Position numbers and translations under genes: made by a program. Positions 5,218 to 57,469 of a stretch of 64,000 bases of DNA are shown here, in pieces. The notes beneath the pieces are model-generated. The model was not told the origin of the DNA. It made no database searches and saw only the letters and a list, made by a program, of their open reading frames with translations. Position 1 is the stretch's first letter, and each line of letters opens with the position of its first letter. The DNA comes from Acidisoma cellulosilyticum (lineage in GTDB: Bacteria > Pseudomonadota > Alphaproteobacteria > Acetobacterales > Acetobacteraceae): the NCBI RefSeq assembly GCF_020621385.1, contig NZ_JAESVA010000004.1:124001-188000 (forward strand), read 5' to 3'.

Positions 5218-6549
5218 ATGAAAGCTGGGCGCACGCTCAAGACGCTCCTTCTGGCTTGTGTGGCAACGGTGGGCCTGACGGTCGCCGGCCAGGCGGCGGA
5301 ACAGGATTGGGGCAGCTTTCCTGGCTATACCTTGAAAGTAAAGCTGGTCGGCGGCACGCAATACGAAAAGCTCTATACGCGCATTCCCGAATGGGAAAAG
5401 GCGACGGGCGCCAAGGTGCAGATCGTCTCGTCCGAGAATTATTTCGATCTGGATCGTGAGATTAAGCAGGATATCGCATCGGGATCGGTCAATTGGTGCG
5501 TGGGTTCCAATCACACCAGTTTTGCGCCGCAATACGGCAAGTTCTATATCGACCTGAAGCCCTATATTTCCGAAGACATCCTCTCCGAATACGTGCCGAG
5601 CGCCATCCGGAATTCGACCGTGAACGGTCAACTGGTGCAGCTGCCGCGCGTCACCGATATTTCGAACATCTATTACAATGAGCTGGTCTACGACAATCCG
5701 GATGTGAAGGCCCGCTATAAGGCGAAGTTCGGCAAGGATCTGGCGCCGCCGACGACCTTCGATGAGTATAAGCAGCAGGCGATCTTCCTGTCCGCGCCGC
5801 CCAATCTTTACGGCACGGCCTTTCCTGGCAAGGATGAAGGGCTGACTGGCCGCTTCATGGAAATTCTCCGGGCCAATGGCGGCGATATGTTCGACGCGCA
5901 GATGAACCCGACTTTCAATTCCAAGGCCGGCGTCGATGCGCTGCAATTCTTCGTCGATCTGTACAAGGCGAAGGCCGTGCCGGCCGGCACGATCAACTAT
6001 ACCTGGGATGATATCGGGCAGAGCTTCGCCGCCGGCACCCTGGCGCTGGATATCGATTGGCCGGGCTTCGCGGCCTTCTTCAACAACCCCAAGACCTCGA
6101 AGATCGCAGGGCATGTCGGACTTGCACTGGCACCGATCGGTGAGGCCGGCAAGCGCGGCGGCTGGTCCGGCTCGCATTCCTTCTCCGTGACCGCCGCCTG
6201 CGACAACAAGAAGGCCGCCGTAAGCTTCGTCGAATTCATGACCGACTATGATTCGGAGATGATGGAGGCGCGGGCGGGCAATCTGCCGACACGCACCAAA
6301 GTCTTCGCGGATGTCGAGGCCGAGTTCAAGCAGCAGCATAACGACTATATGGCGAATATGTTCTCGATCTGGCAGGCATCCCTGGCGGATGCGCGCACGC
6401 CGCCGCTGATCCCGGAATGGATCGATGTCTCCAACGTCATCTGGCCGGCCATTCAATCGGCCGTCCTGGGTCAGAAGACTGCGCAACAGGCGCTGGATGA
6501 TGCCGCCGCCAAGGCCAAGCAGATCGTGCAGGACCAGAGCGACAACTAG
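5218..6549 (+). CDS. Extracellular solute-binding protein, sugar (CUT1) ABC transporter
   Basis: 443 residues, normal length for family-1 binding proteins. A clear Sec signal peptide (basic MKAGRTLK, hydrophobic core, cleavage near QAA/E at about residue 29) sends it to the periplasm. The mature part carries typical features: YEKLYTRIPEWEKATGAKV, ILRANGGDMFD and FAAGTLALDIDWPG. The start ATG has a near-perfect ribosome-binding site. Two permease genes follow. Transport of an oligosaccharide or sugar acid is likely from the family and from the catabolic neighbours; the ligand is unknown. Confidence 0.93.
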   Translation: MKAGRTLKTLLLACVATVGLTVAGQAAEQDWGSFPGYTLKVKLVGGTQYEKLYTRIPEWEKATGAKVQIVSSENYFDLDREIKQDIASGSVNWCVGSNHTSFAPQYGKFYIDLKPYISEDILSEYVPSAIRNSTVNGQLVQLPRVTDISNIYYNELVYDNPDVKARYKAKFGKDLAPPTTFDEYKQQAIFLSAPPNLYGTAFPGKDEGLTGRFMEILRANGGDMFDAQMNPTFNSKAGVDALQFFVDLYKAKAVPAGTINYTWDDIGQSFAAGTLALDIDWPGFAAFFNNPKTSKIAGHVGLALAPIGEAGKRGGWSGSHSFSVTAACDNKKAAVSFVEFMTDYDSEMMEARAGNLPTRTKVFADVEAEFKQQHNDYMANMFSIWQASLADARTPPLIPEWIDVSNVIWPAIQSAVLGQKTAQQALDDAAAKAKQIVQDQSDN

Positions 6550-51576: not shown

Positions 51577-53115
51577 TCAATGTCCGATGGTCGAGCCTTC
51601 GGGCTTGGCCGAGGATCTGAGCGCGATGTCGCGCAATCCGAACACGAACAGGATGGCGATGCTTAACAGAACGGCCGTGACCAGATAGGCGAGGGTGAAG
51701 CCCGAGGACAGGCCATGGCGGATGGCGTCATGCGCTTGAGCAGACAGCCCGTCCAGCGCATGGGTACCTTGGCTGAGCGCCCCGAAATCGATGGCATGGC
51801 GCAGATGGGCCGCGTGTTCCGATTGCCGGAAGCGTAGCGTTAGCAAGGACCCCGCGACCGTGCTGCCGAAAGCGCCGCCGATGGAGCGCAGCAGCAGCAG
51901 CGAACCCGTCGCCGTGCCGATATCGCGCTGTTCGACGGCATTCTGCACGACAACGATCGAGGTCGGCATGCACATGCCTATCCCCGTGCCGAGTATGACG
52001 CTTTCGACCATGATGACGACGGCGCTGGTCTCCACCGTATTAAGGGTCAGGAGCAGGAAGCCGAGGATGGCGCTGCCGAGCCCCCCGAGGAGGATGATCT
52101 TTGATTTGCCGAGGCGCCGGGCCAATAGGCCGGCGAGATAGGCGCCGACCGTGCTGAAGACGAGGAAGGGCATGACCAGCAGGCCGGCGGTTTCCGGCCC
52201 ATAGCCGTGGACGAGCTGGAAATTGATCGGCAGCAGGAAGGTCGCCACGAAAAGCCCGAGCGAGCCGAAAAAGGCGACCGAGACGCCACGCAGGAAAATG
52301 TCATTGGTGAACAATCGCGGCGGCAGCAGCGGGTCGGGCGCCCGCCGCTCCTGCATCACCAGACCGCCGAGCATCAGCAGGCCGAGCAGACCGACCAGGA
52401 CGACCGGTAGTGACAGCCAGGGATAGGCCGTGCCGCCCCAGCTCAACATCAGCAGCAAAGCGGTGACGGCACCGGTCATCAACAGCGCACCGGGGATGTC
52501 GATCCGGCTGGGCCTCGGCACCACGACCAGCAGCCGCAGCGCCCGGTCGCAGAGAAAGATGGCAAGCAGACCGAGCGGCAGATTCATCCAGAAGATCCAG
52601 CGCCAGCTCAACCCTTCCGTGACATAGCCGCCGATGACGGGGCCGGCGATGGAGGCGACCGCCCAGGTGCCGGCCAGATAGCCCTGATAGCGCCCGCGTT
52701 CGCGGGGTGAGACCACATCGGCGATGGAAGCCTGGGCCATGGCGAACAGCCCGGCGCCGCCGATGCCCTGCAAGCCACGGGCGATGATCAGCTCGGGCAG
52801 ATTCTGCGCCAGCGCACAAAGGGCGGAAGCGATCATGAACATGGCGATGGCCGGGTTCATCACCGCGCGGCGGCCGTGGATATCCGACAGTTTGCCGAAG
52901 ATCGGCGTCGCCGCTGTGGAGGTCAGCAGATAGGCGGTGACGATCCAGGCGAGATGATCATAGCTTCGCAGATCATGCGCGATGGCGGGAACCGCAGGGA
53001 TGACGACCGTCTGATCCAGCGCCGCCAGCAGCATGCAGAGCATGATACCGGTGATGACTCGCAGGATTTGAGCATGATTATAGCTCGGCTGCGTCGATTC
53101 TTTTATGGACGTCAT
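51577..53115 (-). CDS. DHA2-family MFS multidrug exporter
   Basis: 512 residues with about 14 helices. Motifs: ALDQTVVIPAVPAIAHDL in helix 1, AYLLTSTAATPIFGKLSDIHGRR in the helix 2-3 loop (motif A), ARGLQGIGGAGLFAMAQAS and GTWAVASIAGPVIGGYV (motif C). No regulator or fusion protein is adjacent. The start ATG at 53115 begins a short cytoplasmic tail before helix 1. Confidence 0.92.
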   Translation of the reverse strand: MTSIKESTQPSYNHAQILRVITGIMLCMLLAALDQTVVIPAVPAIAHDLRSYDHLAWIVTAYLLTSTAATPIFGKLSDIHGRRAVMNPAIAMFMIASALCALAQNLPELIIARGLQGIGGAGLFAMAQASIADVVSPRERGRYQGYLAGTWAVASIAGPVIGGYVTEGLSWRWIFWMNLPLGLLAIFLCDRALRLLVVVPRPSRIDIPGALLMTGAVTALLLMLSWGGTAYPWLSLPVVLVGLLGLLMLGGLVMQERRAPDPLLPPRLFTNDIFLRGVSVAFFGSLGLFVATFLLPINFQLVHGYGPETAGLLVMPFLVFSTVGAYLAGLLARRLGKSKIILLGGLGSAILGFLLLTLNTVETSAVVIMVESVILGTGIGMCMPTSIVVVQNAVEQRDIGTATGSLLLLRSIGGAFGSTVAGSLLTLRFRQSEHAAHLRHAIDFGALSQGTHALDGLSAQAHDAIRHGLSSGFTLAYLVTAVLLSIAILFVFGLRDIALRSSAKPEGSTIGH

Positions 53116-53226: not shown

Positions 53227-54630
53227 TCAATTGGCCAGGGGCGGTCTGCGCTTATGCCAGTCCGTGACGGATTGGAAGGCATGGCCGGCGCGGCAGAGCA
53301 GATCCTCCGCATTGTGACGGCCGACGAGTTGCAGGCTGAGCGGCAGCCCCGCGGTGTCGATGCCGCTCGGCAGCGTGATGGTGGGACTGCCCGAGAAATC
53401 GAAGGGCGCCGTGAAGCGCAGGATCCGTTCAAGCACCGTCGGGTCCTTGCCGTATTCCCCCATCCGGGTGAGGCTTGGGATCGGCACCGGCATGGTCGGT
53501 ACCAGAATGAGATCGACCGCCTCGAACACGGTCTTGAGAGCGCCCGAGAAAGCCAGCCGTTCATGGTAGATCGCGCCGAGTTCCGGGCCCGTGACGGCAA
53601 GCCCTTGTTCGATCAGTGCCGCCAGGTCCGGCCCATACTGATCCCGATGCTTGGGATAGGTCTCGCGATGGGCGAGGGCGGTTTCGACCGAGCAGAAGGG
53701 AATCCAGCCCTGTATCAGCCTGGTCGTCGGCGGCATTGCGATATCGCGGATGCGCGCGCCGAGGTTGATGAGCACCTGTTCGGCTGCGGCGACAGCGGCG
53801 ACAACCTGCGGATCGATCTCGTCGTTGATGAAGCTTTGGTCGATGCCGATGGTAAGCCCACGAATGCTGTCGCCGATACTGCCGAGATAGTTCGGCACTT
53901 CGTCCGGCAGGGTCGTCGGGTCATGCGCGTCCAGGCCGGCAATGACGCCGAGCAATGCGGCACAATCGGCGGCGCTGCGCGCCATCGGGCCGACATGATC
54001 CAGCGACGCCGCCAGAGGGAAAACGCCGTAGCGGCTGACCCGGCCCCAGGTGGGTTTGATGCCGGTGAGGCCGCAGGTCGCGGAGGGGAAGCGGATCGAT
54101 CCGCCGGTGTCGGAGCCGAGCGCGCCGTAGCAGAGACCGGCGGCCGTCGCGACCCCTGATCCGGTGGAGGAGGAGCCGACCCAGTGGTCCCGGCCCCAGG
54201 GGTTGAGCGGCCCGGGATTATCCGGATGGTGGCTGGTATAGGCGCCTTCCGTCATGCTGAGCTTGCCGAGGATGACGGCACCCGCCTGTTCCAGCCGGTC
54301 CACCACGGTCGCGTTGTGACCGGGAATCCAGTCGCGGAACAGTTTGGTGCCGGCGCCGGTCGGGGCAAAGACCGTATTGCACAGGTCCTTGACGGCGATC
54401 GGCACACCGTGCAGCGGCCCGCGCCATTGGCCGCGGGCGATCTCCGCATCGGCTTGCTCCGCTCGCATGATGGCACGGTCGGCAAGTACGGTCGTGAAGC
54501 TGCGATAGATCGGGTCGAGCGCTGCGATCCTGTCGAGCATCGCCTGCGTGAGCTGGGCAGAGGTCAATGCGCCAAGGCGGATGCGATCCGACACCGAGGT
54601 GAGAGAGGCGAATTCCATCGGCGTGGTCAT
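53227..54630 (-). CDS. Amidase of the nitrile-degradation operon
   Basis: 467 residues. The amidase-signature triad is K81 (AVKDLCNT), S154 (GSSSTGSG) and S178 (DTGGSIRFPS), again 24 residues apart. It lies 42 bases after the nitrile-hydratase activator gene in the same direction, so it should convert the amide made by nitrile hydratase to carboxylic acid and ammonia. No signal peptide; cytoplasmic. It differs clearly from the three amidases at 16491-22163, where the transport system supplies the substrate. Confidence 0.92.
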   Translation of the reverse strand: MTTPMEFASLTSVSDRIRLGALTSAQLTQAMLDRIAALDPIYRSFTTVLADRAIMRAEQADAEIARGQWRGPLHGVPIAVKDLCNTVFAPTGAGTKLFRDWIPGHNATVVDRLEQAGAVILGKLSMTEGAYTSHHPDNPGPLNPWGRDHWVGSSSTGSGVATAAGLCYGALGSDTGGSIRFPSATCGLTGIKPTWGRVSRYGVFPLAASLDHVGPMARSAADCAALLGVIAGLDAHDPTTLPDEVPNYLGSIGDSIRGLTIGIDQSFINDEIDPQVVAAVAAAEQVLINLGARIRDIAMPPTTRLIQGWIPFCSVETALAHRETYPKHRDQYGPDLAALIEQGLAVTGPELGAIYHERLAFSGALKTVFEAVDLILVPTMPVPIPSLTRMGEYGKDPTVLERILRFTAPFDFSGSPTITLPSGIDTAGLPLSLQLVGRHNAEDLLCRAGHAFQSVTDWHKRRPPLAN

Positions 54631-54672: not shown

Positions 54673-55029
54673 TCAGGCGATCGCTACAGGCTCGCGCTTG
54701 GCGGCGTGATCGTGATGCGGCGGATGATCGCGCAAATGCTCATGCCGATGATCGAGCTGGTGCAGATCGATCAGGCCCTTCTGCGCCAGCATGCTCTCCA
54801 GCGCTTCCTGCCAGATCTCATAATAATGAATGGTCTCGCCGGGATGGGCTTCGGCCTCATGCTCAGCGATTTCGGCCGAATAGCAGGCGACCCATTCGGG
54901 CCAAGTGAAATGGCCGTCTTCACAGAGCTTCACGGCCATGGCGAAGGCCGCTGCCTCCCACGGGGCCGCGAAGACCGGCCCTTCCGCGTCCTGCGGCAGG
55001 CCGACGGTGCTTTTGAAATCAGGCACCAT
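54673..55029 (-). CDS. Nitrile hydratase activator/accessory protein, His-rich tail
   Basis: 118 residues. The core (GPVFAAPWEAAAFAMAVKL, FTWPEWVACYSAEIA, YYEIWQEALESMLAQKG) matches the P14K/NhlE-type activators, which are related to the N-terminal half of the nitrile hydratase beta subunit and deliver cobalt by subunit exchange. The C-terminal tail from about residue 90 contains nine histidines (HQLDHRHEHLRDHPPHHDH), a likely metal-holding segment. It starts 3 bases after the beta C-half gene. Cobalt transport genes are not seen nearby. Confidence 0.9.
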   Translation of the reverse strand: MVPDFKSTVGLPQDAEGPVFAAPWEAAAFAMAVKLCEDGHFTWPEWVACYSAEIAEHEAEAHPGETIHYYEIWQEALESMLAQKGLIDLHQLDHRHEHLRDHPPHHDHAAKREPVAIA

Positions 55030-55032
55030 GGC

Positions 55033-55395
55033 TCAAACCCCCTCGGGTGCGATGTAATCCTCGAACATCGAGAGATAGACTTTATCGGCCGGATGCGGCG
55101 CATCATCGCCCCATAGCTCACCCGCCTCGAACTCGACATTGTACATGAATTGTCCCTTCTCCCCGAGGTCATGGGCGACCGCATCGGGCAGGACATAGAC
55201 GCCGTAATTCTTGACGATCTTACCAAGCTTGCCGCGCGCATAGGCGGGCAGCCGCGTATGCGTGGTCGGGTTGATATTGACGGCGCGGACCAGATCGCCG
55301 TCCTTGAAGCGGGGCGTCGCATCGGTGGTGCTGTGATAATTGGCGCCCGTCCGGATCAGCTCATCGACACCGTCGAGCGGGAATTTCGAAACCAT
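55033..55395 (-). CDS. Nitrile hydratase beta subunit, C-terminal-half protein
   Basis: 120 residues from ATG 55395. It corresponds to the C-terminal SH3-like domain of nitrile hydratase beta: FKDGDLVRAVNINPTTHTRLPAYARGKLG, then GVYVLPDAVAHDLGEKGQF and NVEFEAGELWG. R54 in AYARGKLG matches the conserved second active-site arginine of beta. Its ATG overlaps the TGA of the N-half gene (TGATG), so it is a separate protein, not the product of a broken frame: the domain is complete and the junction falls at the interdomain linker. Confidence 0.9.
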   Translation of the reverse strand: MVSKFPLDGVDELIRTGANYHSTTDATPRFKDGDLVRAVNINPTTHTRLPAYARGKLGKIVKNYGVYVLPDAVAHDLGEKGQFMYNVEFEAGELWGDDAPHPADKVYLSMFEDYIAPEGV

Positions 55396-55706
55396 CACGC
55401 GGCCTCCTGCGCGAGTTCGGCCATGCGCGCTTCGAGTTCGGCCTTGGTGACGACACCGTGCTCTTCCGCGAAATGCTCCAACGCATGCAGCCAATGCTCG
55501 TAATAGCCCGAGGTCAGGTAATGCACCGGGTCCATCTGTTCGATGGAGTGGCGGAACTTGTCGACATTGAAGAAGCCGCCGGCGAAGGCGAGGATGAACA
55601 TGCCGAACATCCGCTTCTCCCATTCCGCGCGGAAGATGGGTTGCTCGGGGTCGATATTGATTTTGCCGAAACCGTGCCGGCCGCCGAGGTCATGAATGCC
55701 GTTCAT
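55395..55706 (-). CDS. Nitrile hydratase beta subunit, N-terminal-half protein
   Basis: 103 residues from ATG 55706 (GAGAGGA upstream). It matches the helical N-terminal domain of beta: MNGIHDLGGRHGFGK, FRAEWEKRMFGMFILAF, FNVDKFRHSIEQMDP and YYEHWLHALE. R52 is the conserved active-site arginine. The chain ends in Glu/Ala-rich helix and TGA at 55395-55397. Split beta subunits are known from thiocyanate hydrolase and toyocamycin nitrile hydratase. The gene is 12 bases after alpha. Confidence 0.9.
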   Translation of the reverse strand: MNGIHDLGGRHGFGKINIDPEQPIFRAEWEKRMFGMFILAFAGGFFNVDKFRHSIEQMDPVHYLTSGYYEHWLHALEHFAEEHGVVTKAELEARMAELAQEAA

Positions 55707-55718
55707 CGGGCGGTCCTC

Positions 55719-56327
55719 TCAGGCGCTGGGGCTAAGAGGGAAGCCGGTGCCGATCATGGAATCGCGGGTGATAAGGGCGACGAGTTCATCCTCGCTCATG
55801 CCTTCGGTGCCTTCCGGGCGCATGGGTAGCACCATGTAGCGAAGCTCGGCATTGCTGTCCCAGACGCGAACCTGGGTCGTTTCCGGCAGGGTGACGCCGA
55901 ATTCGGCCAGCACGCTGCGGGGATCGATGACGACGCGCGAGCGGTAAGGCGCTTCCTTATACCAGTTGGGCGGCAGTCCCAGCGTCGGCCAGGGATAGCA
56001 GGAGCAGAGGGTGCAGACCGTGACGTTGTGGACCGCATCGGTATTCGCGACGACGACCATTTCCTCGCCCTGCACGCCGGTATAGCCAAGCTCGGCGACG
56101 GCAGCGGTGCCGTCTTCCAGCAGGCGCGTGCGGTAATCGGGATCGGTCCAGGCGCGGGCGACGACGCGGGCGCCGTTCCGCGGGCCGATCTTGTTCTGGT
56201 ACAGATCGACGATCTTATCGACGGCCTTGGCATCGAGCAGGTTTTTCTCGACCAGCAGGCTTTCCATCGCCTTCACGCGGAGGGCGATATCCGTCGTGTA
56301 TCGGCCTTCGTCATGGATGTCGTGCAT
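55719..56327 (-). CDS. nthA: Cobalt-type nitrile hydratase alpha subunit
   Basis: 202 residues. The metal-claw motif is V-C105-T-L-C108-S-C110-Y-P-W-P; threonine after the first cysteine is the mark of cobalt rather than iron enzymes. C108 and C110 are the residues normally oxidised to sulfinic and sulfenic acid. Other family patterns are [21 protein letters not shown] and [21 protein letters not shown]. It hydrates nitriles to amides in the cytoplasm and is first in the leftward operon with split beta, activator and amidase. Confidence 0.95.
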
Positions 56328-56530
56328 CCTGCACTCCTATGGCGGTTTTTTAGGCGGAAGCATTCACGGCATAGCATGCCACGATCCTATTGCTTAAACT
56401 TTGCGCTTCTTGGTGGCTTCGTGCTTGCTTGTGCGGGCCAAGCTTTTTGCCTCAGACGGCCATATTGCGGCCGCTGTGAGCGTAATTTTTTAAGTCACTG
56501 ATATTGTTCACTTCCTGACAGGAGGCTGCC
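56328..56530. promoter_or_regulatory. Divergent promoter region between the nitrile hydratase operon and its AraC regulator
   Basis: 203 bases between two divergent starts. The strand toward the regulator has an AT-rich patch (56482-56508, TAATTTTTTAAGTCAC) and ends in GGAGG at 56521-56525. I see no long perfect palindrome that would name the operator. Confidence 0.45.
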
Positions 56531-57469
56531 ATCGTCAAGATTTGTGAGGATACAGCCTCGGTCCGGCCGGAAGAGCGCTTCGCCTATTGGCAGGATGTCG
56601 TCTGCGGCAAATACTTGACCGCCTCCGCCAGGACCGAGGTGCGGGACCAGTCCTTCGAAGCCCGGCTGGTCAGCCAGGATCTGGGGCCGCTGCGCGTGAG
56701 CGAGCTGCGGGCGCCGCTACATTTCTGGTCGCGCGATGCGGCCGATGTGCGGCGCGACGATCAGGACGTCTATATGCTGAGTCTGCTCAGCCGCGGCCGA
56801 GGTGAACTCAATCAATATGGCAGACGGGCCGTGCAAGGGCCGGGCGATATCGTGCTGTACGACAGTTCGGCCGCCTTTCAATACGATCTGGATGCCGAGA
56901 CGCGGCTGGTCAAAATCCCCAAGGCGCTGTTCGATCAGCGTGTGGGCAAGCCGCGCGATCTGGTCTCGGTCAGTTTCCCCTGCACGGCGCCACTGGCGCC
57001 GATGCTGTCCGCCATGATCACGGAAGCGACAAGGCTGGACCTCAGCGATCTCAGCCAGAATCTGGTCGGCGCGCGGCTGGCGAATTCGATCATCGATGTG
57101 CTGATCGCCATGTGCGATGTCTTCCGTGAAGAACAGAGCGATGTGGCGGCCTCCGCTCGGCTGGACAAGGTGCTGCGCTACGCTCGTGCCAATATCGGCG
57201 ACAGGGATTTGACACCGCAAAGTTTGTCGCAGATCGGCGGTGTCTCCGTCCGCAGCCTCAACCGGATGTTCGGCGCGATGGGCACCACCGCCATGCGCTG
57301 GGTCTGGGCGGAACGATTGAAGGCCAGCCGCGATGCCTTGCGACAGAAGCAGGTCGGCTCCATCACCGAAGCTGCTTTCCTGTTCGGCTTCGCCGATCTC
57401 GGTCATTTCAGCCGAAGCTATAAAGACGCGTTCGGTGAGACGCCGACGGCGACATTGCATCATCAATAA
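56531..57469 (+). CDS. AraC family transcriptional regulator, probable ATC start
   Basis: 312 residues if started at ATC 56531; the nearest standard start is TTG 56615. The first 28 codons clearly belong to the protein: SVRPEERFAYWQDVVCGKYL is the usual beginning of the AraC-binding-like N-terminal domain, and a TGA at 56516 closes the frame upstream. GGAGG lies 5 bases before the ATC, in perfect position. The C-terminal DNA-binding domain has two helix-turn-helices (LTPQSLSQIGGVSVRSLNRMF and SITEAAFLFGFADLGHFSRSYKDAFG). It is divergent from the nitrile hydratase operon and probably its activator. Confidence 0.85.
   Translation: MVKICEDTASVRPEERFAYWQDVVCGKYLTASARTEVRDQSFEARLVSQDLGPLRVSELRAPLHFWSRDAADVRRDDQDVYMLSLLSRGRGELNQYGRRAVQGPGDIVLYDSSAAFQYDLDAETRLVKIPKALFDQRVGKPRDLVSVSFPCTAPLAPMLSAMITEATRLDLSDLSQNLVGARLANSIIDVLIAMCDVFREEQSDVAASARLDKVLRYARANIGDRDLTPQSLSQIGGVSVRSLNRMFGAMGTTAMRWVWAERLKASRDALRQKQVGSITEAAFLFGFADLGHFSRSYKDAFGETPTATLHHQ

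Follow-up and report, generated by a model that had tools for sequence, protein, structure and literature searches.

A predicted three-subunit cobalt nitrile hydratase with a genetically split beta subunit in Acidisoma cellulosilyticum

In Pseudomonas putida, the genes of the cobalt-type nitrile hydratase (NHase) follow the order alpha, beta, activator. The structures of this alpha-beta-P14K system (3qxe and mutants) have a beta subunit made of one chain of 219 residues. The toyocamycin NHase belongs to a biosynthetic setting. According to the accessible part of PMC8574189, it assembles as an (alpha beta gamma)2 hexamer and, compared by description, shares its three subunits with the enzyme reported here. 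In Streptomyces canus, AnhD, AnhE and AnhA hydrate acetamiprid and both beta pieces are required; the beta subunit of this nitrile-active enzyme is split at the border of the N- and C-terminal domains, the gene order is beta-N, beta-C, alpha, and no activator gene is reported in the accessible part of the publication, on whose description our comparison is based (PMC7329996). The NHase encoded on a Microvirga flocculans plasmid is also nitrile-active and has beta genes on both sides of alpha (PMC11573777, accessible part). The thiocyanate hydrolase (SCNase) of Thiobacillus thioparus (2dd4) likewise has a split beta and a cobalt claw, and six gene orders listed in the accessible part of a review (PMC7193024) include SCNase alpha, beta, gamma, activator. 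In the PDB chain names, the designations alpha and beta go to the split halves of SCNase and gamma to its homologue of NHase alpha, so this order differs from alpha, beta-N, beta-C, activator. No description of the latter order was found in the searched literature, which was accessible in part and left most subscription journals outside its scope (PMC10098168, PMC8278588, PMC3323583, PMC4709657, PMC4009401, PMC13243292, PMC13390472). Three-part enzymes were known before; what is new here is the gene arrangement alpha, beta-N, beta-C, activator, and its interest lies not in new chemistry but in a recurrent switching between split and fused beta and in a testable effect of splitting on maturation.

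This arrangement is encoded in the window analysed here, a stretch of 64,000 nucleotides of the A. cellulosilyticum genome. Indeed, five consecutive genes lie on the minus strand, in the order alpha, beta-N, beta-C, accessory protein, amidase: (i) a cobalt-binding NHase alpha subunit of 202 residues (55719..56327; PF02979, 300 bits), in which the expected cobalt claw VCTLCSC is present, (ii) beta-N, the N-terminal half of an NHase beta subunit (55395..55706; 103 residues; PF21006, 135 bits), (iii) beta-C, composed of a linker segment and the C-terminal SH3-like half (55033..55395; 120 residues counted from the ATG, the listed open reading frame having one additional GTG codon upstream; PF02211, 100 bits), (iv) a P14K-like accessory (activator) protein of 118 residues with a His-rich tail, homologous to beta-N (54673..55029; TIGR03889, 80.5 bits, above the cut-off of 46), and (v) an amidase signature family protein of 467 residues (53227..54630; PF01425, 341 bits). 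The original prediction that the enzyme sits with a His-rich activator and an amidase is borne out by the last two matches. The next gene on the same strand codes for a DHA2-like MFS transporter (51577..53115; PF07690, 198 bits), whose connection to the enzyme is uncertain. On the plus strand, a divergent FeaR-like regulator of the AraC family is encoded (56615..57469; PF14525 and PF12833; NF007243, 104 bits, below the cut-off of 199). Its frame is open upstream as far as an ATC at 56531 preceded by AGGAGG, and it may start either at this non-standard codon or at the TTG downstream at 56615; within the region 56520-56620, Acidisoma silvae reads GTG in place of the ATC. A promoter scan gave one site against 1.2 expected, which is chance level, and five terminator-like sites were found against 2.6 expected.

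The alpha subunit, with its CTLCSC claw, scored 310.8 bits against the NHase profile TIGR01323 (cut-off 249.85) and 192.1 bits against the SCNase gamma profile TIGR03887 (cut-off 291.45). The two beta halves scored 128 and 122 bits against TIGR03888, each below the cut-off of 152.2; beta is not a single chain here, and the failure to reach this cut-off reflects the split, as in the published three-subunit NHases. Among PDB entries, the P. putida NHase is the best-scoring relative of both beta halves and, behind 4ob1, the second-best relative of alpha; like the window enzyme, it has the motif CYPW after the claw, both active-site arginines and the linker segment, and it differs by its single beta chain. 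The locus most probably encodes a cobalt nitrile hydratase of three chains (alpha, beta-N and beta-C), for whose maturation the accessory protein would serve; an amidase gene follows.

The opposite assignment, a thiocyanate hydrolase whose split beta was inherited from the SCNase family, shares with our data the three subunits, the cobalt claw and the fold of each half. The accessory gene does not discriminate between the two, because SCNase genes adjoin an activator gene as well (PMC7193024, accessible part). Our trees took in no named SCNase row, and among 398 genomes of the phylum none had an SCNase gamma above cut-off, which leaves this assignment some room. However, it is improbable given the profile scores of alpha (192 bits where 291 are needed for SCNase), the adjoining amidase gene and the identity of the halves in Foldseek alignments, which is 20-22% to SCNase chains and 41-50% to the P. 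putida NHase. The residue after the claw points the same way. The window alpha reads CYPW, like ordinary cobalt NHases, whereas wild-type SCNase appears to have an arginine at this place, judging from the PtNHase chain 3vyh, which reads CYPR, and from the scores of 3vyg, which outscores 2dd4 against the window alpha and falls below it against a CYPR alpha. CYPR versus CYPW is no clean substrate rule, since two loci with the gene order of the nitrile-active M. flocculans enzyme (L046 and L124) read CYPR, and a literature search on the meaning of this residue gave nothing useful. Furthermore, the neighbourhoods of the related loci of Agrobacterium vitis and Rhizobium (split beta) and of Pantoea (fused beta) contain a phenylacetaldoxime dehydratase and an amidase, which indicates nitrile metabolism; the beta genes of A. 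vitis and Rhizobium are absent from the record annotations and their split status was read from the sequence. CbtA/CbtB or a cobalt transporter adjoins three split-beta plasmid loci, and a CbtA gene is present elsewhere in the genome of the window. The suggestion of a three-subunit enzyme active on nitriles rather than thiocyanate is favoured by the evidence; the nitrile-active three-subunit enzymes already published went unnamed when it was made.

The cobalt nitrile hydratase reading is also consistent with the active-site residues. According to the accessible part of PMC7587978, which names beta-Arg157, two active-site arginines bind the oxidised cysteines. Arginine counts were made on 111 beta domains, the two permuted loci being left out. 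All 111 beta-N domains have R52, which had been proposed as the first of these arginines. The second had been placed at R54 of beta-C; it is instead R48, the arginine of the motif HTR, conserved in 111 of 111 beta-C domains. By hand count on alignments, R48 corresponds to R149 in P. putida and, by way of that residue, to R157 of the Pseudonocardia chain (PtNHase). R54 aligns with R163 and is an arginine in 100 of 111. The two beta domains together therefore carry the equivalents of R52 and R157 found in cobalt-type NHases, and arginine mutants at both positions have solved structures (9d65, 9d6j, 9d6k, 9d6m). As to the fold, the AlphaFold model of beta-C (pLDDT 86.5) superposes with TM-scores of 0.82-0.85 on its 14 best-ranked chains, all of them beta chains of cobalt-type NHases, and the view of this half as a complete domain holds. 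It holds less well for beta-N alone, whose model (pLDDT 81, with low-confidence stretches at residues 1-3 and 9-11) gives TM-scores of 0.54-0.64 to 26 NHase beta chains; as this model is less confident and scores lower than that of beta-C, beta-N probably relies on its partners for its final shape.

The two halves are joined, as first noticed, by a TGATG overlap (55393-55397, minus strand), in which the stop codon of beta-N and the start codon of beta-C have base 55395 in common. An AGGAGG ribosome-binding site (55403-55408, minus strand) lies inside the 3' end of beta-N, 7 nucleotides before the ATG of beta-C. The predicted total length of about 220 residues agrees with the 223 (103 + 120) counted here and with the 219 of the P. 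putida chain, and the Pfam profiles divide between the two proteins: NHase_beta_N covers positions 1-100 of 115 on beta-N and NHase_beta_C positions 5-97 of 98 on beta-C. The same split is found in A. silvae (L003), whose alpha matches that of the window at 92%, and in 30 other alpha-tree rows. Comparison of the window with A. silvae gave dN/dS ratios of 0.034 (beta-N), 0.055 (beta-C), 0.076 (alpha), 0.041 (accessory gene) and 0.097 (amidase gene), values that indicate purifying selection on both beta halves. The encoding of beta as two proteins is therefore not a sequencing slip but a real trait of the lineage, common to many loci. That the split could come from a sequencing error or a decayed gene is barely credible: nothing in the window speaks for it, although one locus, L078, exemplifies a broken beta-C, and against it stand the low dN/dS of both halves and the recurrence of the split in A. 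silvae, on plasmids whose records are marked complete and in metagenome-assembled genomes (MAGs) of other families.

A programmed -1 frameshift, which would join the frames into a normal fused beta beside a short beta-N, deserves attention since beta-C is in the -1 frame at TGATG/TAATG and ATGA junctions and since its frame is open upstream in the window. It is nonetheless very improbable. Indeed, no X_XXY_YYZ heptamer occurs within the last 60-odd nucleotides, the AUG and the Shine-Dalgarno spacing suit initiation, and the junction varies among loci, which is compatible with initiation but not with a fixed frameshift. Among the 32 alpha-first split junctions, 20 have a TGATG/TAATG overlap and six an ATGA; in the others, the start lies at +5 (four), -5 (one) or +23 (one) from the first stop base, the last being L121, whose record annotates a later start. 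In 25 of the 32 junctions, a Shine-Dalgarno core precedes the beta-C start by 4-15 nucleotides, whereas 12-mers taken from the beta-N coding sequence contain one at a rate of 0.098.

Related-locus, genome and plasmid searches gave 128 loci with an alpha gene, window included. Nine rows (seven repeats or near-copies and two fragments), a second, fragmentary alpha of L010 and two rows identical to a third were removed, leaving 117. In this sample, which was picked by similarity to the window proteins and whose counts are not natural frequencies, alpha is followed by a split beta in 32 cases and by a fused beta in 42, a split beta precedes alpha in 28 and a fused beta in 11, two loci are permuted (beta-C, alpha, beta-N) and two are untypable. 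The alpha-first split loci have the same gene order as the alpha-first fused operons; their named hosts are Alphaproteobacteria and one cyanobacterium, and they occur also on plasmids with records marked complete (Aminobacter MSH1 pUSP2, A. vitis, Rhizobium, Gloeocapsopsis), as well as in MAGs from other families. Only two of the alpha-first split records annotate the halves, and both label them simply 'SH3-like domain-containing protein'; with such generic names and scores below the NCBI beta-subunit cut-off, annotation can miss this group of enzymes.

The beta tree comprises 113 rows and excludes the linker columns, its direction being unfixed by an outgroup. In it, 30 of the 32 alpha-first split rows lie together in a part that also contains the fused rows L069 (Citrobacter) and L122 (Pantoea). 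The two remaining rows lie elsewhere: L080 groups with the fused L096 and has a differing overlap and frame, its start lying 5 nucleotides before the stop codon, and L078 is placed among fused rows, its split being counted with caution as its beta-C frame appears broken downstream of the ATGA start. Four split-label changes were counted on the beta tree, all of them forced by starred branches, and nine on the alpha tree, four of them forced; the two trees differ in detail. These reconstructions indicate repeated switching between split and fused beta within the alpha-first lineage. Since the linker is retained in beta-C, fission is favoured as the origin of the split, and the nesting of the fused rows makes a later re-fusion in Enterobacterales likely, though not firmly established. 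A single clade of all 32 alpha-first splits was also tried and is rejected (AU test, p 0.0172 on the alpha tree and p 0.0004 on the beta tree); for the 30 rows without L078 and L080, a single clade is borderline (p 0.0355). Two loci have unusual contents. L078 has two consecutive beta-N copies after alpha. L075 has, in one operon, a fused beta, alpha, then a split beta-N/beta-C and an accessory gene, with identities between fused and split copies of 67% (N) and 86% (C), and could perhaps be a frozen intermediate of fusion or fission.

The beta-first split loci form a distinct group. Indeed, 27 beta-first rows and the two permuted rows constitute one clade of the beta tree (support 100/100), outside of which falls L031, a beta-first row on a long branch. 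Of the 28 beta-first split loci, 25 read CYPR after the claw, whereas all 32 alpha-first ones read YPW or FPW, and no accessory gene was found within 1.8 kb of alpha in the 28 beta-first loci, many of which are only about 3.5 kb long, so that a more distant gene would have escaped notice. The barrel domain match starts -3 to 12 nucleotides from the end of the beta-N stop in the 12 beta-first junctions measured, and at 42-60 nucleotides in alpha-first splits measured likewise (106 in L078, whose frame is broken); the segment linking the two domains of a fused beta is thus retained by the alpha-first beta-C and absent from the beta-first one. The window enzyme, with its order alpha, beta-N, beta-C, activator, differs from the S. 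canus type in gene order and activator content. It differs from that of M. flocculans by gene order, the three subunits being shared; the order of the latter is matched by L046 and L124 (Rhizobium ruizarguesonis plasmid), which group with the beta-first split clade, and, from annotation only, by L141 (Microvirga terrae plasmid). The name thiocyanate hydrolase-like was considered for the beta-first clade and dropped, given the 398 genomes mentioned above and four scanned alphas (L002, L120, L123, L031), none of which passes the SCNase cut-off and two of which pass the NHase cut-off. L002 is a second split set in the genome of the window (alpha at 749079-749615), with the order beta-N, beta-C, alpha and the motif CYPR; its alpha is below both cut-offs. 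Two differently split enzymes thus coexist in this genome.

The accessory gene is present in 31 of the 32 alpha-first split loci; in L010, none was found in the available stretch, and some of these enzymes may therefore do without the accessory protein. An arginine in the R52 column occurs in two of 71 accessory proteins, and that of the window has no R52 equivalent. A homologue of beta-N without this arginine would suit the role of holding apo-alpha and giving way afterwards. In the maturation scheme that we propose, alpha bears the cobalt claw, and the helical beta-N and the SH3-like barrel beta-C would stand in for the single beta chain, R52 and R48 each binding oxidised claw cysteines. The ribosome would terminate beta-N and restart on beta-C, and this translational coupling would yield the halves at near 1:1. 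The accessory protein would hold apo-alpha for cobalt loading before being displaced by beta-N, the halves would dock onto alpha to give (alpha, beta-N, beta-C)2, and the enzyme would convert nitriles into amides that the amidase would hydrolyse. The broader idea, that beta splitting is recurrent and reversible and that, where the activator is kept, free beta-N competes with it for cobalt-loaded alpha, beta-C capping the complex last, is put forward tentatively; if true, the classical swap of whole subunits would become a domain-by-domain exchange. A rather unlikely alternative is that beta-N is itself the main maturation chaperone, with the accessory protein secondary. AnhD is reported to do both jobs in S. 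canus (PMC7329996, accessible part), beta-N and the accessory protein are homologous, and L010 shows no accessory gene in its available stretch, but retention of the accessory gene in 31 of 32 loci and its dN/dS of 0.041, a sign of purifying selection, argue against a secondary role. Similar split and fused operons (Agrobacterium/Rhizobium versus Pantoea/Citrobacter plasmids) allow direct tests of what splitting does and of what the beta-N-like activator contributes.

In five alpha-first split loci (L015, at 5271-5987, L081, L083, L084 and L085), the accessory protein carries an additional, fused beta-C-like domain, in which the R157 equivalent is a histidine in all five; the alphas of these loci read CFPW. 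These fused proteins look like beta-shaped chaperones without that catalytic arginine. A close split-beta relative, L066, is encoded with CbtA/CbtB on plasmid pUSP2 of Aminobacter sp. MSH1 (alpha 79.5%). This plasmid is typed as conjugative and the strain comes from dichlobenil-treated soil; the L066 enzyme is a candidate for the hydration of this nitrile herbicide.
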